64,000 nucleotides of DNA from Pseudomonas asplenii (lineage in GTDB: Bacteria; Pseudomonadota; Gammaproteobacteria; Pseudomonadales; Pseudomonadaceae): positions 46,642 to 110,641 of the forward strand of contig NZ_JSYZ01000001.1 in the NCBI RefSeq assembly GCF_001293465.1, in the 5' to 3' direction. The notes under the pieces were generated by a model, which did no database searches, had not been told where the DNA came from, and saw nothing but the letters and a program-made list of their open reading frames with translations. The number at the start of each line of letters is the position of its first letter. The stretch's first letter is position 1. Positions 11,073 through 41,035 of this stretch are shown here, in pieces. The position numbers and the translations under genes are program-made.

Positions 11073-12422
11073 TCAGAAAACCGACTGAATTTTCAGGCCG
11101 GCCACCAGGGCGTTGTCGACTTGATCCACACCACCCGGATGGGTGATGTACTGCAGGTTGGGCCGTACGGTCAGCCAGTTGGTGACATGGATGCCGTAGT
11201 TGAGCTCGTAGTTGTACTCGGTTTCGCGCAGTGGCGAGTACAGCGGGTTGTCATAGTCGCTGACACCGATGGCGGCGTTGGCCAGCTCGGCGTTTTTCTT
11301 CACGTCGTCGTTGACATGGATACGGGCGACGCCGAAGCCGATGTCATCCTTGGGACGTGCATCGAACGGCCCCTTGTACACCAGCATCAGCGACTGATAG
11401 TTGTCGACGACGTTGGTGTCCTTGTCGTGGAAGGTCGCGTTGGCGGCGATGTTCAGGCCACGGGAGGCGTCGCCGTTGTGGCTGGTCAGCTGCTGCTGCG
11501 CAACGAACCAGTAGCCGTGCTTGCTATCGTGAACGCGATAGGCGTTGCCGGTGGTTGCGGCATCGGCACCATTGACGTCCTCGCGCACGTCATTGGCCGG
11601 CGCGGTGCTCTTGTAGTAGCCGACCCGGTATTCGCCCGGCAGGCTGTTCAGCTTCGGCGACCAGACCAGTTCGACCGGCAGCACGGTACCCTTGGTGCCG
11701 CTGCCGCTGAGCTTGAAGCCGTTGCCATGCTCCAGCTGCGATGGGTTCTGGTTGTAGGCGCCGACCTGCGCATACAGCTCAGGGGTGATGTGGTACTTGA
11801 CCCGCAGCGCCGCCTGGCTGACCGGCCAGTTGTACCAGATGCCGGTTGCCCAGTTGCCCACCTGGGAGCCACAGAACGCCAGGTTCTGGAAGTCGCAGGG
11901 GAAGGTGTTGAAGTCTTCGCCTTCGCCGAAGTAACCGGCCTTGACGTCGAGCTTGCCGTCGAGGAACTGGTGCTGGATCCACAGTTGGGTCAGGCGGACC
12001 ATGTGGCCACGGCCGTAGACTTCCTGGGAGGAACTGAGGGTGCCGGCACGCGGGTCACCGACCCGGTCATTGGAAATGTTGTAGCCGTTGCGGTTGGTCA
12101 GTTGGATCTTTGCCTGGGTGTTGTCCCAGCCCCACAGTTTCTGCAGGTCCAGCGCCACGCCGAGGCCGAACTGGTCGGCGTAACGTGCGGTCTTGTCGTC
12201 GTTGTAGCCGCCATGCAGGTTGCCACCGACTTCACCGACGTAGTCGGCCTTGATATCGATGCCCTGCTCGATGAGCCGGGTACGTTCGCCCCCCCAGTCG
12301 CCGGTCATCCACTTGGAGTCGGCGCTGAACGCCTCGTCCGCCACCGCATGGCCAGCCATGACCAAGGCCGCCGCCGCTGACAACTGGCAGATCAAGCGGG
12401 TGTTGGTGTTCCTCTTTTTCAT
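11073..12422 (-). CDS. oprB: Carbohydrate-selective porin OprB
   Basis: A 449-residue outer-membrane porin for glucose and related sugars. A signal peptide is clear (basic MKKRNTNTR, hydrophobic stretch, cleavage after GHAVA near residue 28). The mature start DEAFSADSKWMTGDWGGERTR is the OprB family signature, and the protein ends in a beta-barrel strand with terminal Phe (KIQSVF). Three cysteines, at least two in an extracellular-loop-like region (FPCDFQNLAFCGSQ). It lies 90 bases downstream of gltK and is probably co-transcribed with the glucose ABC transporter. An AATAACAA motif is near its ribosome site. Confidence 0.96.
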   Translation of the reverse strand: MKKRNTNTRLICQLSAAAALVMAGHAVADEAFSADSKWMTGDWGGERTRLIEQGIDIKADYVGEVGGNLHGGYNDDKTARYADQFGLGVALDLQKLWGWDNTQAKIQLTNRNGYNISNDRVGDPRAGTLSSSQEVYGRGHMVRLTQLWIQHQFLDGKLDVKAGYFGEGEDFNTFPCDFQNLAFCGSQVGNWATGIWYNWPVSQAALRVKYHITPELYAQVGAYNQNPSQLEHGNGFKLSGSGTKGTVLPVELVWSPKLNSLPGEYRVGYYKSTAPANDVREDVNGADAATTGNAYRVHDSKHGYWFVAQQQLTSHNGDASRGLNIAANATFHDKDTNVVDNYQSLMLVYKGPFDARPKDDIGFGVARIHVNDDVKKNAELANAAIGVSDYDNPLYSPLRETEYNYELNYGIHVTNWLTVRPNLQYITHPGGVDQVDNALVAGLKIQSVF

Positions 12423-12441
12423 CCCTACATCCTCGTCTTTA

Positions 12442-12449
12442 TTGTTATT
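12442..12449 (-). promoter_or_regulatory. AAnAAnAA (Hfq/Crc-type) motif before oprB
   Basis: AATAACAA on the minus strand, about 20 bases before the oprB ATG and just upstream of its GAGGA ribosome site. It matches the Hfq/Crc recognition pattern and parallels motifs before gltB, the AGE gene, zwf and gapA. Confidence 0.5.
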
Positions 12450-12512
12450 AACAGTCTTTATTGAACGTGGTTTACATCGAACGCGACGAGCGGCAAGCCG
12501 CCCGCCCTGAAT

Positions 12513-13670
12513 TCAGCGGCCCTTGAATTGCGCCACATTGTCGCCACTGGCCTGGGGCCGGGACTGCACCACCTGGCCCAGGCGCTCGCCGGTCGCGGCG
12601 TCGAACAGCAACACCTTGGCCGGGTCGAACTGCAGGGTCAGGGTCTCGCCCACCTGCGGCGCCACATCCGGCGCCAGGCGGCAGCAGACCTTGCTGTCGT
12701 TGAGGGTGACGAACACCAGGGTGTCCGGGCCGGTCGGCTCGGTGACCTGTACCTCGGCGCGGATGCTCGGCAGATCGGCATCGCCATTGGCCAGCAGGAT
12801 CTGCTCGGGGCGCAGGCCCAGTACCACTTCACGATCCTCAAGGCCGGCCTGGCTGGTGTTCAGCGGCAGTTCGCAGCGCGCCTGGCCACTGTCGAGCAGC
12901 GCCACCAGGCGACCGTCCTTGCGCTGCAGGCGCAGCGGAATGAAGTTCATCGGCGGCGAACCGATGAAGCTGGCGACGAACTGGTTGGCCGGGTCGTTGT
13001 AGATCTCTTTCGGCGTACCGAACTGCTGGATGATGCCGTCCTTCATCACCGCCACCTTGTCGCCCAGGGTCATCGCCTCGATCTGGTCGTGGGTGACGTA
13101 GACCGTGGTGGTCTTCAGGCGCTGGTGCATCAGTTTCATTTCGGTGCGCATCTCGACCCGCAGCTTGGCATCGAGGTTCGACAGCGGTTCGTCGAACAGG
13201 TAGATCTTCGGCCGCCGCGCCAGCGCCCGGCCCATCGCCACGCGCTGCTGCTGTCCACCGGAGAGCTGGCCCGGCTTGCGGTTGAGCAGGTGTTCGATCT
13301 GCAGCAGCTTGGCGACCCGGGCGACTTCCTCGTCGATGGCCGACTGGCTCATCTTGCGGATCTTCAGGCCGAATTCGATGTTTTCGCGCACGCTCATGGT
13401 CGGGTACAGCGCATAGGACTGGAACACCATGGCGATGTCGCGATCCTTGGGGCTCATGCCACTGACGTCCTGGTCGCCGATCATGATCGCGCCGCCGGTG
13501 ATGTTCTCCAGGCCGGCGATGCAGTTCATCAGGGTCGACTTGCCGCAACCCGAAGGGCCGACGAGGATCAGGAACTCACCGTCCTTGATCGACAGTTCGA
13601 TGTTCTTCAGGGTGTCCGGCAGGCCGGCGCCATAGGTCTTGTTTACGTTGCGAAGTTCGAGCGTTGCCAT
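12513..13670 (-). CDS. gltK: Glucose ABC transporter ATP-binding subunit
   Basis: A 385-residue MalK/UgpC-type ATPase that powers glucose import. Walker A GPSGCGKST, signature LSGGQQQR, Walker B YLFDEPLSNLD and the H-loop THDQIEA are intact. The C-terminal ~130 residues form the OB-type regulatory domain of the MalK group. It follows gltG by two bases. It is called gltK or gtsD in pseudomonads. Confidence 0.95.
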   Translation of the reverse strand: MATLELRNVNKTYGAGLPDTLKNIELSIKDGEFLILVGPSGCGKSTLMNCIAGLENITGGAIMIGDQDVSGMSPKDRDIAMVFQSYALYPTMSVRENIEFGLKIRKMSQSAIDEEVARVAKLLQIEHLLNRKPGQLSGGQQQRVAMGRALARRPKIYLFDEPLSNLDAKLRVEMRTEMKLMHQRLKTTTVYVTHDQIEAMTLGDKVAVMKDGIIQQFGTPKEIYNDPANQFVASFIGSPPMNFIPLRLQRKDGRLVALLDSGQARCELPLNTSQAGLEDREVVLGLRPEQILLANGDADLPSIRAEVQVTEPTGPDTLVFVTLNDSKVCCRLAPDVAPQVGETLTLQFDPAKVLLFDAATGERLGQVVQSRPQASGDNVAQFKGR

Positions 13671-13672
13671 GA

Positions 13673-14518
13673 TTACCCCTTGACTGCGCCGGCCGTCAGC
13701 CCGCGCACGAAATACTTGCCTGCGACCACATAGACCAGCAGCGTCGGCAGCCCGGCGATCATCGCCGCCGCCATGTCCACGTTGTATTCCTTGACCCCGG
13801 TGCTGGTGTTGACCAGGTTGTTCAGCGCCACGGTGATCGGTTGCGAATCACCGCTGGAGAACACCACGCCGAACAGGAAGTCGTTCCAGATCTGGGTGAA
13901 CTGCCAGATCAGGCAGACCATGATGATCGGGGTCGACATCGGCAGGATGATCCGCCGGAAGATGGTGAAGAACCCCGCGCCATCCAGGCGTGCCGCCTTG
14001 ACCAGCGCATCGGGGATGCTCACGTAGTAGTTGCGGAAGAACAGCGTGGTGAAGGCCAGGCCATAGACCACGTGCACGAACACCAGGCCGGTGGTGGTGC
14101 TGGCCAGGCCCATCTTGCCGAGGGTGAAAGAGGCCGGCAGCAGCACGGTCTGGAACGGCAGGAAGCAGCCGAACAGCAGCAGCCCGAAGAACAGCTGCGA
14201 ACCGCGAAAGCGCCACATCGACAGCACGTAGCCGTTCAGCGCACCGATGGCGGTGGAGATCAGCACCGCCGGAACGGTGATCTTGATCGAGTTCCAGAAG
14301 TAGCCGTTGACCGTGGCCCAGGCCTTGATCCAGCCGATGTCGGTAAACACCGTCGGCCAGCTCAGCAGGTTGCCGGTGCTGATGTCGTCCGGCGACTTGA
14401 AGCTGGTCAGCAGCATCACCACCAGCGGCACCAGGTACAGCAGCACGGCGATGATCAGGACCGCGTGGATGGCGATGCGGCTCAGGCTGATGGAAGGTTT
14501 GTCGGTGAGACTAGTCAT
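13673..14518 (-). CDS. gltG: Glucose ABC transporter permease, MalG type
   Basis: A 281-residue inner-membrane permease with about six hydrophobic segments. The EAA-type loop is AARLDGAGFFTIFRRIILPMSTP, where it docks on GltK. The ATG at 14518 gives MTSLTDKPSISLSR and overlaps the gltF stop by eight bases, implying coupled translation; a longer in-frame start lies inside gltF. Confidence 0.94.
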   Translation of the reverse strand: MTSLTDKPSISLSRIAIHAVLIIAVLLYLVPLVVMLLTSFKSPDDISTGNLLSWPTVFTDIGWIKAWATVNGYFWNSIKITVPAVLISTAIGALNGYVLSMWRFRGSQLFFGLLLFGCFLPFQTVLLPASFTLGKMGLASTTTGLVFVHVVYGLAFTTLFFRNYYVSIPDALVKAARLDGAGFFTIFRRIILPMSTPIIMVCLIWQFTQIWNDFLFGVVFSSGDSQPITVALNNLVNTSTGVKEYNVDMAAAMIAGLPTLLVYVVAGKYFVRGLTAGAVKG

Positions 14519-15419
14519 GACGCTTGGTCCTAAGCTCGGAGTACAGGTAAGGCACGATGATCGCGAGAATCGCACCGAGCATCAGAATCGCACTGGCCGA
14601 ACCCATGCCCATCTGGCCGCGACTGAAGGTGAAGGAGTACATGAACATCGCCGGCAGGTCGGACGAGTAGCCGGGACCGCCCGCGGTCATCGCCGCCACC
14701 AGGTCGAAGCTCTTGATCGCGATATGCGCCAGGATCATCACCGCACTGAAGAACACCGGGCGCAGGCTGGGCAGCACCACCTTCCAGTAGATCTTCGGCA
14801 TGCTCGCGCCATCGATCTGGGCGGCACGGATGATCGACTGGTCGACGCCACGCAGGCCGGCGAGGAACATCGCCATGATGAAGCCCGAGGCCTGCCAGAC
14901 CGCGGCGATCACCAGGCAGTAGACGACGCGATCGGGGTCGATCAGCCAGTCCAGGCGGAAGCCTTCCCAGCCCCAGTCACGCAGCAGCTTGTCCAGGCCC
15001 ATGCCCGGGTTGAGCAGCCATTTCCAGGCGGTACCGGTGACGATCATCGACAACGCCATCGGGTACAGGTAGATGGTACGGATGAAGCCTTCGCGACGGA
15101 TCCGCTGGTCGAGGAACACCGCCAGCATCACGCCGATCGCCAGGGTGATGGCGATGAACAGGCCGCCGAACAGCGCCAGGTTCTTGCTCGCCACCCACCA
15201 GCGGTCGTTGTCGAACAACCGCGCGTATTGCGCCAGGCCGACCCACTTGTAGGTCGGCAGGAAAGTCGAGTTGGTGAACGACAGCACGAACGTCCACAGG
15301 ATGTAGCCGTAGAAGCCCACCAGCACGATGAACATGCTCGGCGCCAGCACCAGTTTGGGTAGCCAGCGCTGCAGGAAATCGAACGGCGAGGCCTTGCTGA
15401 ACACAGCAACAGAGCTCAT
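14511..15419 (-). CDS. gltF: Glucose ABC transporter permease, MalF type
   Basis: A 302-residue inner-membrane permease pairing with GltG. About six membrane segments are visible, starting with LVLAPSMFIVLVGFYGYILW, and the EAA loop reads AAQIDGASMPKIYWKVVLPSLRP. The ATG at 15419 is taken rather than a GTG four codons upstream. It is separated from gltB by 155 bases containing a REP pair. Confidence 0.94.
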   Translation of the reverse strand: MSSVAVFSKASPFDFLQRWLPKLVLAPSMFIVLVGFYGYILWTFVLSFTNSTFLPTYKWVGLAQYARLFDNDRWWVASKNLALFGGLFIAITLAIGVMLAVFLDQRIRREGFIRTIYLYPMALSMIVTGTAWKWLLNPGMGLDKLLRDWGWEGFRLDWLIDPDRVVYCLVIAAVWQASGFIMAMFLAGLRGVDQSIIRAAQIDGASMPKIYWKVVLPSLRPVFFSAVMILAHIAIKSFDLVAAMTAGGPGYSSDLPAMFMYSFTFSRGQMGMGSASAILMLGAILAIIVPYLYSELRTKRHD

Positions 15420-15462
15420 GGGAAAATCCACTACAGGAAAAAAGGAACTGCTTCAGCGCCCC

Positions 15463-15574: not shown

Positions 15575-16861
15575 TTACTTGGCGGACTTGACCGCCGCGC
15601 CGAGCTTCTTCGCCGCGTCGGCCGGGTCGGCTTTCGGGTCGTTGATGTAGTTGGTCACCACATCAAAGAACGCGCCCTGAACAGCCAGCGTGGTCGCCAT
15701 GTTGTGCGCCATGCTCGGCTGCAGGCCGCCGGTCTTGGCATCGGCCAGGAAGTCCTTGGCAGCGGTCTGCGCGCAGGAGTCGAAGCCATACTTGGCCATG
15801 TCGCCCAGCATGTCGTTGCGCACCGGGATCGAACCCTTGTTGATGCTGAAGACCTTCTGGAAGTTTTCGCCCAGCACCACCTTGGCGATGTCCTGCTGGC
15901 CGGCCGCGGTGCCCTTGTCCTTCTGCTTGAACACCGCCAGGGAGTCGATGTTGTAGGTGAAGGCCTTGTCGGTACCCGGGAAGGCTACGCACTCGTAGTC
16001 CTTGCCGGCGACTTTCTTGGCCGCGGTCCATTCGCTCTTGGCCCAGTCACCCATGATCTGCATGCCGGCCTTGCCGTTGATGACCTTGGCCGCTTCCAGG
16101 TTCCAGTCCTGGCCCTTGCCGTCGACGTCCATGTAGGTCGCGACTTTCTTCAGCTCGGTCAGGGCCTTGACCATTTCAGGACCGGTCAGGGCAGCGTTGT
16201 CCAGGTCGACCAGGGCTTTCTTGTAGCCATCGACCCCCATCACCGAGAGCACCACCGCTTCGAACACGGTGCTGTCCTGCCAAGGCTGGCCACCGTGGGC
16301 CAATGGGATGAAACCCGCCGCCTTGAGCTTGTCGCCGGCTGCGTAGAATTCCTGGAGCGTGGTCGGCGCCTTGGCGATGCCGGCCTTCTTGAAGACCTCG
16401 GGGTTGATCCACAGCCAGTTGACGCGGTGGATGTTCACCGGCACGGCGACGTAGTCACCGTCGTACTTCACGGTATCGGAGACTTTCTTGTCGAGCAGGC
16501 TGTCCCACTTCTCTTCCTTGGCCACGTCCTTGAGGACGTCGGTGTCGAGCAGCCCGGTGGAGGCCCACTCCTGAATGTCGGGCCCCTTGATCTGCGCGAC
16601 GCCAGGCGGGTTGCCGGCTACGGCACGGCTTTTCAGCACGGTCATGGCCGTGGCACCGCCACCGCCGGCGACAGCCCCGTCCTTCCAGGTGAAGCCGTCT
16701 TTTTCGACCTGGGCCTTGAGCACATCGACAGCCGCTTTTTCCCCACCGGACGTCCACCAGTGAACCACTTCCACACTCCCTTTGGAGTCGGCAGCCAGTG
16801 CACTGAGGGGGAACAACGAGGCGAGGGAAATCATTGCGGCGAGGCGAGAAATCGAATTCAT
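15575..16861 (-). CDS. gltB: Periplasmic glucose-binding protein
   Basis: A 428-residue extracellular solute-binding protein (family 1). The N-terminal signal peptide [23 protein letters not shown] is followed by [15 protein letters not shown], the sugar-binding family start. It captures glucose and delivers it to GltFG/GltK. The ATG at 16861 has AGAAAGGTACTTCAG before it; a longer in-frame start would disrupt the signal peptide. First gene of gltBFGK-oprB. Its promoter-leader block is nearly duplicated in front of the neighbouring AGE gene. Confidence 0.96.
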
Positions 16862-16875
16862 CTGAAGTACCTTTC

Positions 16876-16883
16876 TTGTTGTT
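16876..16883 (-). promoter_or_regulatory. AAnAAnAA (Hfq/Crc-type) motif in the gltB leader
   Basis: AACAACAA on the minus strand, immediately followed by GAAAGGT and then the ATG eight bases later. It is a full match to the Crc/Hfq pattern overlapping the ribosome-binding region. The AGE gene has the same arrangement with identical spacing. Confidence 0.6.
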
Positions 16884-16915
16884 ATGCATGCAAGTCTGGT
16901 GCTTGCGCTGCATCG

Positions 16916-16982
16916 GATTCTAGTAAAGGCGAGTGCCCTCGCAGGTAACGAAGGGACGCGCAAATGTCACCGTCTGGTTACA
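16916..16982 (-). promoter_or_regulatory. gltB operon promoter/operator block
   Basis: Read on the plus strand: GATTCTA, 20 bases, AGGTAACGAAGG, 9 bases, ATGTCACC, 4 bases, GGTTACA. On the minus strand GATTCTA becomes TAGAATC, a good -10 box, with no good -35, as expected for an activator-dependent promoter. The GGTNAC elements upstream are candidate operator half-sites. The block recurs at 18319-18385. GltR is the obvious candidate regulator, by inference. Confidence 0.6.
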
Positions 16983-16986
16983 TGAG

Positions 16987-18255
16987 TCAGACCGCGGTTT
17001 TCGACGCAAAGTGCCGGGCCAGAGCGCTTGCCAGGCTTGGCGCCAACGGCAGGCAGGGTAACAGGAGTGCCTGGTAGGCGTGATAGAGGTCGGGCTTGCC
17101 ACCCCAGATCCGCGCGCTGGGCCGGTTGTGATCGTCCAGTTCGTGATGCCAGCTGCCATACTGCCGGTCGATGAAATGCAGCTCGTTGAAGTCCCAGAAA
17201 CGTCGGTACCAGGTTTCGTACTGCTGCTCTCCCGTACGCCGCAGCAGGGCCGCCGCGGTCGCGCTGGCCTCGCAGTGCACCCAGTGCAGGCGCTCGCTGA
17301 CCACCGGGCGGTTGTCCCAGTCCAGGGTATAGACCACCCCCGGCCGGCCATCCGCCGCCCAGGCATGGCGACAGGCGGCGGCGAACAGTCCACGGGCGTC
17401 CTCCAGCAGCCAGTCTGGGGTTGCCAGCCCGGCTGCGCGGCGGGCCGCTTCAAGATGCAGCAGCAGCCGCGACCACTCGAAGGCGTGTCCCGGGGTGGTG
17501 CCGTAGGGGCGGAAACCGTCCGCCTGATTGTCCCGGTTGTACTCGCGCAACGGCTGCCAATGCCGGTCGAAGTGTTCGATGACCGCAAAACCGTTGTCCG
17601 CCGCCTGCCGGTGGATCAGTCGCTCGACGATCCGCAGGGCGCGGTCCAGCCAGCGACTGTCGCCCGTCACGTCGGCCAGGGCGAGGAAGGCCTCGGTGCC
17701 GTGCATGTTGCTGTTGGCGCCGCGATAGGCTTCCTCGTTGCTCCAGTCGCGGGCGAAGGACTCGCGCAGTGCGCCCTCCTCCTCACTCCAGAAATGCGTG
17801 TCGATCACCCGGATCGCCTCGGCCAGCAGGGCCGGGGCCTGCGGGCTGCCGGCGACCACCGCCGAACTGGCGGCGAGCGCGACGAAGGCATGCAGGTAGG
17901 CGGCCTTGCCACTGTTGCCATCGCGATGTTCCGGTACCGCGTACCAGCCACCGAAGGTCGCATCGCGCAGCGGCCCCCAGAGCGCGGCGACACCGTGCTC
18001 AACCAGCGGCAGGGAGCCGGGAATGCCCTGGACATGGGCCATGGCAAAACAGTGGGTCATGCGGGCGGTATTCATGGTCTCGGCCATGGCGTGGGCCGGC
18101 AGGCGCCCCTGGCCGTCGAGATTGCCGAATCCTTCATCGAGCCTGGCGGCCCTGGCGAACGCCAGCAGGCGCCGTCCTTCGTCCATCAACCAGGCACTGT
18201 GGGCAGGTGCGTTCAGCCAGCTGCCGAACGAAAATTCAAGGCTGTCGCCTGTCAT
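16987..18255 (-). CDS. AGE-family epimerase/isomerase (mannose isomerase-like)
   Basis: A 422-residue (alpha/alpha)6-barrel protein of the N-acylglucosamine 2-epimerase family, closer in look to D-mannose/aldose-ketose isomerases than to GlcNAc epimerases. Typical segments are SNMHGTEAFLALAD, GTTPGHAFEWSRLLL and WHHELDDHNRP, supplying the catalytic histidines. A sugar interconversion feeding the glucose route (for example mannose to fructose) is plausible; the substrate is unproven. The ATG at 18255 is preferred over a GTG at 18264 because the leader then aligns base for base with that of gltB. No signal peptide. Confidence 0.87.
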   Translation of the reverse strand: MTGDSLEFSFGSWLNAPAHSAWLMDEGRRLLAFARAARLDEGFGNLDGQGRLPAHAMAETMNTARMTHCFAMAHVQGIPGSLPLVEHGVAALWGPLRDATFGGWYAVPEHRDGNSGKAAYLHAFVALAASSAVVAGSPQAPALLAEAIRVIDTHFWSEEEGALRESFARDWSNEEAYRGANSNMHGTEAFLALADVTGDSRWLDRALRIVERLIHRQAADNGFAVIEHFDRHWQPLREYNRDNQADGFRPYGTTPGHAFEWSRLLLHLEAARRAAGLATPDWLLEDARGLFAAACRHAWAADGRPGVVYTLDWDNRPVVSERLHWVHCEASATAAALLRRTGEQQYETWYRRFWDFNELHFIDRQYGSWHHELDDHNRPSARIWGGKPDLYHAYQALLLPCLPLAPSLASALARHFASKTAV

Positions 18256-18269
18256 GCGCTTCACCGTTC

Positions 18270-18277
18270 TTGTTATT
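18270..18277 (-). promoter_or_regulatory. AAnAAnAA (Hfq/Crc-type) motif in the AGE-gene leader
   Basis: AATAACAA followed by GAACGGT and the ATG eight bases later: the same 22-base layout as in the gltB leader. It supports the chosen start and a shared post-transcriptional control. Confidence 0.55.
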
Positions 18278-18318
18278 CAGGAGCTTGTTCAGGGGCAGGT
18301 CGCGCGCCTGTCGTGCCG

Positions 18319-18385
18319 AGGATTCTAACCAGCGGCCTGGTGACGACAGGTAACGAAGGCTGACGAGAATGTCACCAACCGGTGA
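18319..18385 (-). promoter_or_regulatory. AGE-gene promoter/operator block, near copy of the gltB block
   Basis: GATTCTA, 20 bases, AGGTAACGAAGG, 9 bases, ATGTCACC, 4 bases, GGTGACA on the plus strand, with the same spacing as 16916-16982. The last part is a perfect inverted repeat, TGTCACC-AACC-GGTGACA (18368-18385). Minus-strand TAGAATC serves as the -10. Confidence 0.6.
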
Positions 18386-18597
18386 CAATTCGCGGGCTCT
18401 GCAACGCGATGCCTGTAAGGTTCTTTCATGACGCAAAGTAGGAAAAATGCCGATTAGGCCGCTTCCCTTTTCTCTGTAGGAGCTATCCCTAAAGCCTTTT
18501 CCCACATTGAAGCTCGACTTTGCCTGAGCGAATCTCGCCATCCGTCATCCCTGACATGCCCCATGAAAAGCCGACACCCGTTAAGGAGGCACTCCCC

Positions 18598-19239
18598 ATG
18601 GTCAACGACAATCCACGCCTGGCACGCCAGTGCTGCATCTTTCCATTGCGCCAGAGCAACCGGCAGTACGCCTGGAAGGAGGAAGTGCGGCGGGGCGGCA
18701 AGCTGCTGAGCGAAATATTCACGTTCGAGGAGTACGGTGGCGAAGAGCCGGCGCGGCTGGCCGCCGAGTCGTGCCGCAACGCACTGGTGCTGAAGATGCC
18801 GGCCGCGCTGACCTACGAGAGCCGCCAGCGCCTGCTGCCGAACAACACCAGCGGTCATCCGGGGGTGATGCGGATCGAGACCAACAACATCGGCTACTGG
18901 CGGGCCAGCACGCGGATCCATGGCTACAACCTGAACCGCAGCTTCAGCGTCGAACGCTATGGCGAGGAACAGGCCAAGCGCCTGGCGCTGAACGAGCGGC
19001 AACGGCAACTGGCGCTTTGCGAAGAGCCCTACGAACAGGCCATGAAGATCCTGCAGCAGCATTTCAGCCAGACCAACGCCCGCGTGCGCGAACACCGGAT
19101 CCAGGCGGCCATCGGCCAGGCCCGGGGGCGCCGCACCTCAGCCGACAGCCAATTGTCGGGCGACCCGGCACAACTGGTCATCACCCCGGAGCAGGCCTCG
19201 CTGTCGATCAGTCGGCATTTCGCGGCAGGAACAAAGTAA
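18598..19239 (+). CDS. AP2-like domain protein, putative DNA-binding
   Basis: A 213-residue basic protein with an excellent ribosome site (AAGGAGG, ATG at 18598). Residues about 88-138 resemble an AP2-type integrase-like DNA-binding fold: GVMRIE, GYWRAS, then SFSVERYGEEQAKRLAL. Residues about 25-64 look like a second, diverged copy (YAWKEEVRRG, IFTFEEYGGEEPARLAAE). The remainder (140-213) is helical and low in motifs. No membrane segment. It converges on gtrS with a 32-base overlap. A regulatory role in the glucose island is conceivable from position only. Confidence 0.75.
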   Translation: MVNDNPRLARQCCIFPLRQSNRQYAWKEEVRRGGKLLSEIFTFEEYGGEEPARLAAESCRNALVLKMPAALTYESRQRLLPNNTSGHPGVMRIETNNIGYWRASTRIHGYNLNRSFSVERYGEEQAKRLALNERQRQLALCEEPYEQAMKILQQHFSQTNARVREHRIQAAIGQARGRRTSADSQLSGDPAQLVITPEQASLSISRHFAAGTK

Positions 19240-20668
19240 CCCGCAGGCCGCCTTCGCGCAGGTTCTGCAGGCTCACTTCGCCGCCATGGCTGTGGGCGAT
19301 GTTGCGGGCGATACCCAGGCCCAGGCCATAACCCGGCTGCTGGCCGGACAGGCGGAAATGCGGCTCGAACACCTGTTCCAGGCGCTGCTCGGGAACCCCG
19401 GGACCTTCGTCGTCGACATGCAGGATGAACGCACTGTCATCGTCCTCGATGTGCAGGTGCGCCCGCTCGCCATACTTGAGGGCATTGTCGATCAGGTTGC
19501 CCATGCAGCGGCGCAAGGCCAGCGGCTTGCCCGGGTAGGTGGCAAGCGCACGGCCTTCGAGGCTGACCAGACCATTGCCGGTAGGCGAGAGGTAGCATTC
19601 GACCAGGGTATCGAGCGCCTGGTTGAGGTCCACCGCCTCGATATTCTCGTGGATGTCGGTGTCCTTCACGCATTGCAGCGCCCCCTTGACCAGCATCTCC
19701 AGCTCATCGAGATCGCGCCCGAACTTCAACTGCATCTGCTCATCCTCGAGCAACTCGACCCGCAGCCGCAGACGGGTGATGGGCGTGCGCAGGTCGTGGG
19801 AAATCGCGCTGAACAGCTGGCTGCGTTCGGTCAGGTAGCGGCTGATGCGCTCACGCATGGTATTGAGCGCACGCCCGACCTCCATCACCTCGCTGCCACC
19901 GCCGGCAAGCACCGGCCGCACCTCTTCGGCTCCCAGCGACATGTCCCGCGCGGCACGGGCCAGGCGCTTGAGCGGCCGGCTCTGCCAGTGCACCAGCAGG
20001 CCGATGAACAGCAGCAGGAACCCGCTGGTGAGCAGGATGAACCAGACCTGCTGGGCCGGCAGCCCCTCCTCCTCCAGGCTGGTGTAGGGTTCGGGCAACA
20101 GCGAGGCGATATAAAGCCATTCGCCGGGCGACATCTGGATCTGCGTCACCAGCACCGGCGGGTTCACCGGCTCCAGGGTCAGGGCGTAGTGGGCCCACGA
20201 ACGAGGCAGTTCATCGAGTTTCAGGCCGCCGTTGAAGATCCGCAGATTGTCGGGGCTGACGAAATTCACCGTGATATCCACGTCGTTGCCCAGGGACTGG
20301 CGCAGCACCTCATGGACCGCCTCGAGCACCGCGGTCTTGCGCGGGGTCGGGCCGAGCAGTTGCATGTCCAGCGGCTTGTCGTTGAGGGTCACGACGAAGC
20401 GCGTCCCCCCCATGCTGCGCAACTGGTCGAGCACCAGCGGCCGATAGGCCAGGGGCAACGAGCGCAGGTAGCTGACGCTGGCAGTCATCGAGTGGGCCAG
20501 GCTGCGGGCACTGGTGACCAGCCCTTCGAGTTGGGTGGCACGCAGTTGCGAAAGCCAGATGACGCTGGACAGCGCCTGGGCCAGCAACACCGCGAGCAAT
20601 GTCAGCAGCAGCATCCTTCCGAGCAGCGAACGCGGCACCGGCAGGCGCTGGCGCAGTTCAGAGAACAT
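19208..20668 (-). CDS. gtrS: Sensor histidine kinase GtrS
   Basis: A 486-residue inner-membrane kinase partnered with GltR. The first membrane segment lies near residues 18-40, a periplasmic sensor region runs to about 205, and the second segment is near 208-228, followed by HAMP. The H-box SHDLRTPITRL gives phospho-His291, and the ATPase has a DEGPGVPEQRLEQVFEPHFR G-box. In P. aeruginosa GtrS is reported to respond to 2-ketogluconate and 6-phosphogluconate and to activate glucose uptake genes through GltR. It overlaps gltR by 11 bases. Confidence 0.95.
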   Translation of the reverse strand: MFSELRQRLPVPRSLLGRMLLLTLLAVLLAQALSSVIWLSQLRATQLEGLVTSARSLAHSMTASVSYLRSLPLAYRPLVLDQLRSMGGTRFVVTLNDKPLDMQLLGPTPRKTAVLEAVHEVLRQSLGNDVDITVNFVSPDNLRIFNGGLKLDELPRSWAHYALTLEPVNPPVLVTQIQMSPGEWLYIASLLPEPYTSLEEEGLPAQQVWFILLTSGFLLLFIGLLVHWQSRPLKRLARAARDMSLGAEEVRPVLAGGGSEVMEVGRALNTMRERISRYLTERSQLFSAISHDLRTPITRLRLRVELLEDEQMQLKFGRDLDELEMLVKGALQCVKDTDIHENIEAVDLNQALDTLVECYLSPTGNGLVSLEGRALATYPGKPLALRRCMGNLIDNALKYGERAHLHIEDDDSAFILHVDDEGPGVPEQRLEQVFEPHFRLSGQQPGYGLGLGIARNIAHSHGGEVSLQNLREGGLRVTLFLPRNAD

Positions 20669-21389
20669 TGGCGGCCGTGACGTGGGCGGCCAGTTGGTAA
20701 CCGCTGCCGCGCACGGTGCGGATCAGTCGCGGTGGTTTCCCGGTGTCGCGCAGGCGCTGGCGCAAGCGGCTGACGGCCATGTCGACGATACGGTCGAGGG
20801 GCATCAGGTCACGCCCGCGGGTGGCGTTGCCGATGGTGTCACGGTCGAGGATTTCCTGGGGATGGTCGAGAAACAGCTTGAGCAGGGCGAAATCGGCGCC
20901 GGAGAGAATGACCTCTTCACCATCGATGTGAAACAGCCGGTGGCTGACCGTGTCCAGCCGCCACTCGTCGAAAGCCAGCACCTCGCTGCCGGCGCGCTCC
21001 TGGCCGAACTGGGCACGGCGCAGCAGGGCCTTGATTCGCGCCTGCAGTTCACGGGGGCTGAAGGGCTTGCCCAGGTAATCGTCGGCGCCCAGTTCCAGCC
21101 CGATCACCCGGTCGGCCTCGTCGGAACTGGCGGTCAGCATGATGATCGGCACATGGGCCTGACGCGGGTGCTGCCGGATCCAGCGGCAGAGACTGAAACC
21201 GTCCTCGTCGGGCAGCATCACGTCGAGAATGACCAGGTCGCCGGGAGCTTCGTTGAACGCCTGGCGAAAACCGGCGCCATCACCGACCGTACGCACCTGG
21301 AAACCGGCACGACTGAGGTAGGTGTCCAGCAGTTCACGGATTTCCTGATCGTCGTCGACCAGGAGAATGGACTTACTGACTGCGCTCAC
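20658..21389 (-). CDS. gltR: Response regulator GltR (OmpR family)
   Basis: A 243-residue regulator: receiver domain with acidic pocket DDD at 12-14 and phospho-acceptor Asp56 (VILDVMLP), then an OmpR-type winged helix ending in RLIRTVRGSGYQL. The start is GTG at 21389. A CAACAACAG stretch lies about 12 bases upstream, so translation may be subject to Hfq/Crc. It controls the glucose porin/transporter genes in pseudomonads and is the best candidate to act at the blocks before gltB and the AGE gene. Confidence 0.95.
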   Translation of the reverse strand: MSAVSKSILLVDDDQEIRELLDTYLSRAGFQVRTVGDGAGFRQAFNEAPGDLVILDVMLPDEDGFSLCRWIRQHPRQAHVPIIMLTASSDEADRVIGLELGADDYLGKPFSPRELQARIKALLRRAQFGQERAGSEVLAFDEWRLDTVSHRLFHIDGEEVILSGADFALLKLFLDHPQEILDRDTIGNATRGRDLMPLDRIVDMAVSRLRQRLRDTGKPPRLIRTVRGSGYQLAAHVTAANVL

Positions 21390-31652: not shown

Positions 31653-31793
31653 TGTCGATCTCTCCTAATTATGATTTTCAGCGACCGGAATCTGTACCGG
31701 CCGGTTAACGAATCCGGCGTTGCCGGTTACGGCTCGACGAGCGAACCGTGGAAGACTGTCTGGCGATTTTCGCCAAAACCTTGCGGTGACCGT

Positions 31794-31822
31794 TACATAG
31801 GGGCACCAAAATCGATTACAAG
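31794..31822 (-). promoter_or_regulatory. Heat-shock (sigma-32 type) promoter of groESL
   Basis: On the minus strand: CTTGTAA, 13 bases, CCCTATGT, close to the sigma-32 consensus CTTGAAA-N13/15-CCCCATnT. It is correctly oriented upstream of groES. Confidence 0.65.

Positions 31823-40670: not shown

Positions 40671-40747
<77 letters not shown>

Positions 40748-40958: not shown

Positions 40959-41035
<77 letters not shown>

Follow-up and report, generated by a model that had tools for sequence, protein, structure and literature searches.

The glucose-uptake operon of Pseudomonas asplenii and the isomerase gene directly upstream of it carry matching promoter blocks, and we give a probability of roughly 0.84 to the reading that both blocks are GltR-dependent promoters, which would drive the transporter and a D-mannose isomerase together on glucose. 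The observations behind this reading are the sequence of the blocks, their conservation, their linkage to the adjacency of the two genes, and their agreement with the GltR site published for gltB. The window, which is the whole stretch of DNA analysed, is 64,000 nucleotides long. On its minus strand, the gene order is gltR, gtrS, a gene of 213 residues on the opposite strand, the isomerase, gltB, and the remaining uptake genes. The features are as follows.

20658-21389, minus strand: gltR, OmpR-type response regulator (Pfam Response_reg and Trans_reg_C), proposed activator of both promoters
19208-20668, minus strand: gtrS, sensor histidine kinase (Pfam HAMP, HisKA and HATPase_c)
18598-19239, plus strand: gene of 213 residues between gtrS and the isomerase, weak AP2-domain match
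18321-18387, minus strand: predicted GltR-type operator and -10 of the isomerase, from sequence and conservation (box 1 TGTCAC, 18382-18387; box 2 GTGACA, 18370-18375; box 3 TTCGTTAC, 18350-18357; -10 TAGAAT, 18322-18327)
18270-18277, minus strand: Crc/Hfq catabolite motif AATAACAA in the isomerase leader, from sequence
16987-18255, minus strand: AGE-family isomerase, probable D-mannose isomerase (manI/yihS-like), 422 residues
16916-16982, minus strand: predicted GltR-type operator and -10 of gltB, from sequence and conservation (box 1 TGTAAC, 16977-16982; box 2 GTGACA, 16965-16970; box 3 TTCGTTAC, 16945-16952; -10 TAGAAT, 16917-16922)
16876-16883, minus strand: Crc/Hfq catabolite motif AACAACAA in the gltB leader, from sequence
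15575-16861, minus strand: gltB (gtsA), periplasmic glucose-binding protein, first gene of the uptake operon (open reading frame)
11073-15431, minus strand: remainder of the uptake operon, with open reading frames 14511-15431, 13673-14575, 12513-13670 and 11073-12422, which by order and sequence we take to be gltF, gltG, gltK and oprB

The gltR gene lies 2.3 kb from the nearer block. It is adjoined by gtrS in three of the four relatives examined, and neither gene was seen within the stretch fetched from genome G120. The name gltB rests on gene order and on its use in the original prediction; the protein matches no Pfam family at 0.001, and its match to the NCBIfam GlcS-like family falls under the cut-off of that family. 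The AP2-domain match of the 213-residue gene is weak (36.1 bits against a cut-off of 33.3), and among the loci examined this gene is present only in L003-L007 and L073-L081, the closest relatives of the window. Elsewhere in the window, two tRNA genes (40671-40744 and 40959-41032) have equal Rfam scores and lie 288 bases apart from start to start, perhaps as a tandem duplicate, and Rfam also places a Pseudomon-groES element at 31684-31796. An RNA reading of the region from 16 to 19 kb found no Rfam match there.

Read on the minus strand, both blocks fit TGTNACC-N4-GGTGACAT-N9-CCTTCGTTACCT-N20-TAGAATC with identical spacing and no mismatches. Each contains three boxes, TGTNAC-N6-GTGACA-N12-TTCGTTAC, followed after 22 bases by a -10 without a -35; the GATTCTA of the original prediction is TAGAATC on the coding strand, that is, the -10-like element. 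No sigma-70 site with a -35 was found in 16800-18700. Two matching blocks with identical spacing, a good -10 without a -35, and matching translation leaders (AATAACAAGAAcGGT and AACAACAAGAAaGGT; ATG start codons at 18255 and 16861 for isomerase and gltB, respectively) had all been predicted, and direct reading confirms them. The gltB block lies where it had been placed, and the isomerase block, given before as 18319-18385, is at 18321-18387, a slip of two bases. Chance resemblance between two upstream regions has nothing but the short length of the blocks to recommend it, and we regard it as practically negligible. The best ungapped matches between the 300-base upstream regions are identical at 41 of 67 positions for length 67 and at 31 of 41 for length 41, compared with means of 31.4 (sd 1.35, maximum 39) and 22.3 (maximum 27), respectively, among 2000 dinucleotide-shuffled pairs. 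The 38-base core, with up to three mismatches, occurs twice in the 7.14-Mb genome, at the two blocks, and the blocks are conserved in 98 loci, as described below. At up to three mismatches there is no third block in the 7.14-Mb genome, nor is there one within the window, so the other promoters of the window, including those of edd, glk and gap-1, carry no full three-box site.

The isomerase protein matches Pfam PF07221 and scores 739.1 bits against the NCBIfam family ManIsomPseudo (NF051846, cut-off 600), covering 400 of 401 positions. Its nearest solved chains are those of YihS/sulfoquinovose isomerase (E values of 8e-119 to 2e-117), and when it is aligned with the YihS chains its residues His185, His257 and His392 fall on histidines; three catalytic histidines are described for the YihS subfamily in passages of PMC7762179. 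These matches make the AGE isomerase of the original prediction, more specifically, a probable D-mannose isomerase, and its substrate in the cell would be mannose.

Both blocks are very probably GltR operators, judging from their agreement with the gltB site of P. aeruginosa. According to passages of PMC7927077, P. aeruginosa GltR activates gltB in response to glucose, and its footprints on gltB cover -44 to -13 (footprint I) and -11 to +15 (footprint II). The same passages give GTNACAAA as the ChIP-seq motif of GltR and GTGACAAACCCGGA as the PAO1 site, and report that a reporter without GTGACAAA loses glucose induction. The PAO1 site recurs without a change in the gltB block of G317, where it forms box 2 (TGTAACCATCCCGTGACAAACCCGGATCGCTTCGTTAC). 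G317 is a 6.59-Mb one-contig genome from another genus of the family, which this 14-base match and its size make a probable P. aeruginosa. When mapped on G317 (loci L178 and L195, gltB only), boxes 1 and 2 lie within footprint I and box 3 within footprint II; the mapping sets the first base of GTGACAAACCCGGA at -22, a position given for a variant one base shorter, and is accurate within one base. The GTNACA core of the published site reads GTGACA in both blocks, and the window continues as GTGACAT, without the trailing AA. The GltR proteins of the window and G317 are 82% identical. They are identical in the segment RIVDMAVSRLRQRLRDTGK, which we take to be the location of the recognition helix in the family of GltR.

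The regulator and the block also occur together. Among the 20 of 41 isomerase-free genomes that were searched, a GltR orthologue (79-87%) accompanies the gltB orthologue in each of the 10 that have one, and the block, with up to two mismatches, is seen in 8 of these 10; in the other two (L118 and L119) the boxes are present, with the distance from box 2 to box 3 apparently shorter by one base. The 10 genomes without a gltB orthologue have neither a full GltR orthologue nor the block (0/10); two of them contain only a gltB homologue of 32-33%, and one has a GltR fragment. We note a GltR-like fragment at G008:C1:1255244-1255549 (83% over residues 134-235); the genome in question lacks both gltB and the block. 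Taken together, the published site, the footprints and the co-occurrence of GltR support the prediction of one shared regulator, likely GltR, and the isomerase promoter would be bound and activated by it.

Together, boxes 1 and 2 make up an inverted repeat of 18 bases, TGTNAC-N6-GTNACA, which resembles what a dimeric one-component regulator would bind and would favor a regulator other than GltR. OmpR-type regulators usually bind direct repeats. GTNAC equals its reverse complement, and the core reads alike in a head-to-head and a head-to-tail arrangement. We consider another regulator improbable, because the GltR footprints, the ChIP-seq motif and the promoter deletion described for P. aeruginosa fall on these very boxes (passages of PMC7927077) and because GltR co-occurs with the block. 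The consensus sites of two other regulators, HexR (TTGT-N7/8-ACAA) and RccR (TGTAGT/ACTACA), were also looked for and are absent from both blocks.

Regarding the direction of control, the conserved -10 occupies block positions 61-66 and has no -35, and box 3 lies just upstream of the place where a -35 would be. Promoters that depend on an activator have this layout, which favors the activated promoter proposed in the original prediction. The start implied by the conserved -10 is ~37 bases downstream of the gltB start given in PMC7927077 (after Daddaoua), in the passages available from it, and the two conflict, so that one of them must be wrong. The published gltB start falls inside GltR box 3 (block at 6292-6358 of L195). 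In the passages of Daddaoua 2014 (PMC4081096), GltR is a repressor when unphosphorylated, with the consensus tgGTTTTTc. GTTTTT is absent from both blocks, which therefore do not match this consensus. PMC7927077 quotes both versions in its passages, which suggests that tgGTTTTTc is probably the opposite strand of the same gltB/oprB element in a strain variant. For P. plecoglossicida, passages of PMC11544825 report that deletion of gltR or gtrS had no significant effect on glucose consumption.

Scanning named genomes for the isomerase yielded 70 loci, and other loci were added from the genus and the family. Loci with the isomerase less than 400 bases from gltB are referred to as adjacent (n = 98, with 91 different isomerase DNA sequences); the window, L073 and L123 are one genome, and L137 and L163 are another, all counted in the 98. 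With a matrix built from most of these loci, the gltB block scores in 98/98 and the isomerase block in 92/98. The six misses of the isomerase block are L123, a truncated copy from the genome of the window itself; L134 and L135, which are loci ending early (the longer L198 has the block for the genome of L134); L137 and L163, both from genome G113, which is without the block though its isomerase adjoins gltB; and L166 (G120), where two of the three boxes, boxes 1 and 2, are kept. In view of the last two genomes, the coupling is dispensable. Loss of the block in relatives with both genes had been named as evidence against the original prediction, and this check leaves the prediction unrefuted, as 92 of the 98 adjacent loci keep the isomerase block. 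Another 14 loci, outside the 98, end before gltB, and all 14 have the isomerase block. Across 82 distinct isomerase blocks and 74 distinct gltB blocks, positions 2, 3, 5, 6, 14-18, 31, 32, 34, 35, 37 and 38 are invariant, in an alignment that omits 6 of 93 isomerase rows with more than nine mismatches; position 13 differs in seven gltB blocks. The least variable parts are GT-AC, GTGACA, TTCGTTAC, and TA-A-T of the -10.

Isomerase genes that do not stand next to gltB provide a natural control. Where no gltB was found in the fetched flanks (6 kb, or 2 kb upstream and 4 kb downstream), which we refer to as displaced loci, the block is present in 0/24, and the best scores are at the level of shuffled sequence. 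The 24 loci include two remote outgroups, Kluyvera and Marinomonas; the displaced genes within the genus form a well-supported group of 19 and a second group of 3 in a quick tree of 124 proteins with a midpoint root. Among 199 genomes of the genus, 158 have the isomerase and 41 have none. At least two blocks (up to two mismatches each) are found in 126 of the 158 genomes with the isomerase versus none of the 41 without it, and a single block in 32 and 19, respectively. Twenty of these 32 single-block genomes were fetched, and the isomerase is displaced in 18 and adjacent in two. The adjacent and displaced loci, together with the genome counts, show that the block follows the position beside gltB and not the gene. 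As for gltB itself, 29 of 35 non-adjacent gltB entries pass a stricter cut-off, and the six failures have a shifted -10 (L090, L100), variant spacing (L118, L119), or are 32% homologues (L121, L122). We also fetched 20 upstream regions of gltB in five further genera of the family, and each carries the block. A search of a plasmid collection returned 11 records, with 66-68% identity among the five matches listed. We note that displaced loci L037 and L153, both of the larger group, have a chemoreceptor gene upstream of the isomerase and AbrB-like and LysR-type genes downstream, and that L165 has a LysR gene upstream instead.

The leader common to both genes, AAYAACAAGAA, contains the Crc/Hfq catabolite motif AANAANAA, which was absent from the original prediction. 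Passages of PMC10617552 and PMC12533007 describe this motif as bound by Hfq/Crc, and those of PMC12533007 list it in gtsA (also spelt gstA) of KT2440. Within the 40 bases before the start codon, a window used for all groups, the motif is found in 80 of 86 distinct leaders of block-bearing isomerase genes (4.0 expected from shuffles) and in 69 of 69 distinct gltB leaders (3.6 expected), and in 2 of 21 distinct leaders of displaced isomerase genes. Counts from unlike windows (86/95, 83/83 and, for displaced genes, 2/24) are not relied on; in another window, 11/24 displaced genes have the motif, nine of these starting inside coding sequence. With the block absent from displaced genes and the motif rare in them, both layers of control follow position, and Crc/Hfq may act on the isomerase mRNA as well. 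The common leader could also be simply a good ribosome-binding site with no role for Crc/Hfq, as the motif sits at the Shine-Dalgarno region. The responses of motif-bearing genes are moreover condition-dependent and non-uniform, and the motif does not uniformly predict the response to CrcY/CrcZ, according to passages of PMC12533007. We nevertheless find this explanation unlikely, given the contrast between 80/86 and 69/69 leaders with the motif and 2/21 in displaced genes, and given that, on octanoate, overexpression of CrcY/CrcZ raises GtsA abundance more than twofold (passages of PMC12533007).

The original prediction offered a copied promoter or one shared regulator as the origin of the similarity; the regulator part is supported, and the copied-promoter part is not borne out, as the 5' flanks match at chance. 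In the 60 bases upstream of the blocks, identity is 0.257, the same observed as shuffled. An old promoter copy may still have taken place, as block positions outside the boxes and the -10 match at 0.407 against 0.277 from composition, although either old descent or weaker constraint could explain this similarity. We give even odds to the explanation that the isomerase received a duplicated gltB promoter segment, or the reverse, and that the similarity reflects common descent. This explanation concerns origin and is compatible with control by GltR. It would account for all the elements, including the -10 and the leader, being in the same order and spacing, for the match outside the boxes, and for 3' flanks that match slightly above expectation (0.317 versus 0.281). 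In isomerase-free loci, furthermore, the block is more like the gltB block than the isomerase block in 30/31 (some genomes counted twice), which suggests that the gltB block is probably the ancestral one. On the other hand, besides the 5' flanks, block pairs from the same genome are hardly closer than pairs across genomes (0.407 versus 0.402), and stepwise assembly under selection would give much the same present picture.

The stop codon of the isomerase lies inside the gltB block in 84 of the 98 adjacent loci, a feature missing from the original prediction. The coding end and a regulatory box thus share bases in these loci. The stop is a TAA within box 1 in 66 of them, a TGA within box 2 in 16, and a TGA at positions 11-13 in two; in the window, the isomerase stop is 4 bases before the gltB block (16977-16989). 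The overlap fits an isomerase gene inserted flush against an existing operator, where GTAAC or GTGAC would have supplied the stop codon.

With GltR as the regulator of both promoters, glucose bound by GltB would activate GtrS and GltR, as shown by others in P. aeruginosa. GltR would bind the three GTNAC boxes, box 2 lying 11 bases from box 1 and box 3 a further 21 bases along, and, with the boxes ending just upstream of the would-be -35, would recruit RNA polymerase to a -10 without a -35. The ancestral GltR promoter would be that of gltB, and in many pseudomonads the isomerase stands directly upstream of gltB, behind what would be a second GltR promoter. As the same control switch is found on the isomerase and the glucose-uptake genes, glucose probably turns on both, and its presence would lead to joint production of transporter and isomerase. 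In both mRNAs a Crc/Hfq motif lies close to the ribosome-binding site, and through it both would be turned off when better carbon sources are available. The likely purpose would be the use of mannose that enters along with glucose, perhaps by way of the same ABC transporter, after conversion to fructose.

The prediction that a second sugar enzyme was added to the glucose regulon is supported, and a regulator and a physiological context can be proposed for a widespread enzyme (158/199 genomes of the genus). A broader reading, to which we give somewhat less than even odds, combines several parts: a glucose-sensing two-component system gates mannose use, the isomerase converts co-imported mannose before glucokinase traps mannose 6-phosphate, the stop codon is built into the operator in most relatives, and GltR is an activator at both promoters. 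If true, mannose use would be gated by glucose, not by mannose, across much of the genus, and the isomerase would be the companion of a promiscuous glucose transporter, turning mannose into fructose. The block geometry would then also settle the published dispute between activator and repressor, with GltR activating both genes. The three-box site with its spacing bears on activation versus repression by GltR, and related species with the same gene with or without the block offer a natural experiment.

Several known systems can be compared with this locus. The P. geniculata AGEase, as described in passages of PMC7762179, resembles the isomerase by description, as it belongs to the AGE family, has three catalytic histidines and isomerizes mannose and fructose; those passages deal with enzymology only. 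For P. protegens Pf-5, passages of PMC6293094 report conversion of mannose to fructose in a strain lacking an annotated isomerase gene. In KT2440, yihS lies 110 bp upstream of gtsABCD, with fructose-mannose isomerization suggested (passages of PMC8313287), which by description is the same gene pair as here; the adjacency of isomerase and glucose transporter is therefore already in print. Unlike at this locus, those passages describe no common promoter or regulator, and they report YihS as "not specifically upregulated" in fructose electrode culture. Control of the isomerase by GltR was not found among the matches listed from the open-licence literature, within the passages these provide. The Daddaoua 2014 model (passages of PMC4081096) concerns the same regulator, with repression there versus an activator-type box geometry here. 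The closest comparison is the gltB GltR site of P. aeruginosa (passages of PMC7927077), which has the same gene and boxes as here, with both footprints coinciding, while its published consensus is GTNACAAA versus the three spaced boxes of this locus. Unlike the window, G317 and G206 of the same genus have no AGE-family gene. The isomerase appears to be an additional target of an already described regulator, and not the mark of a new type of system.
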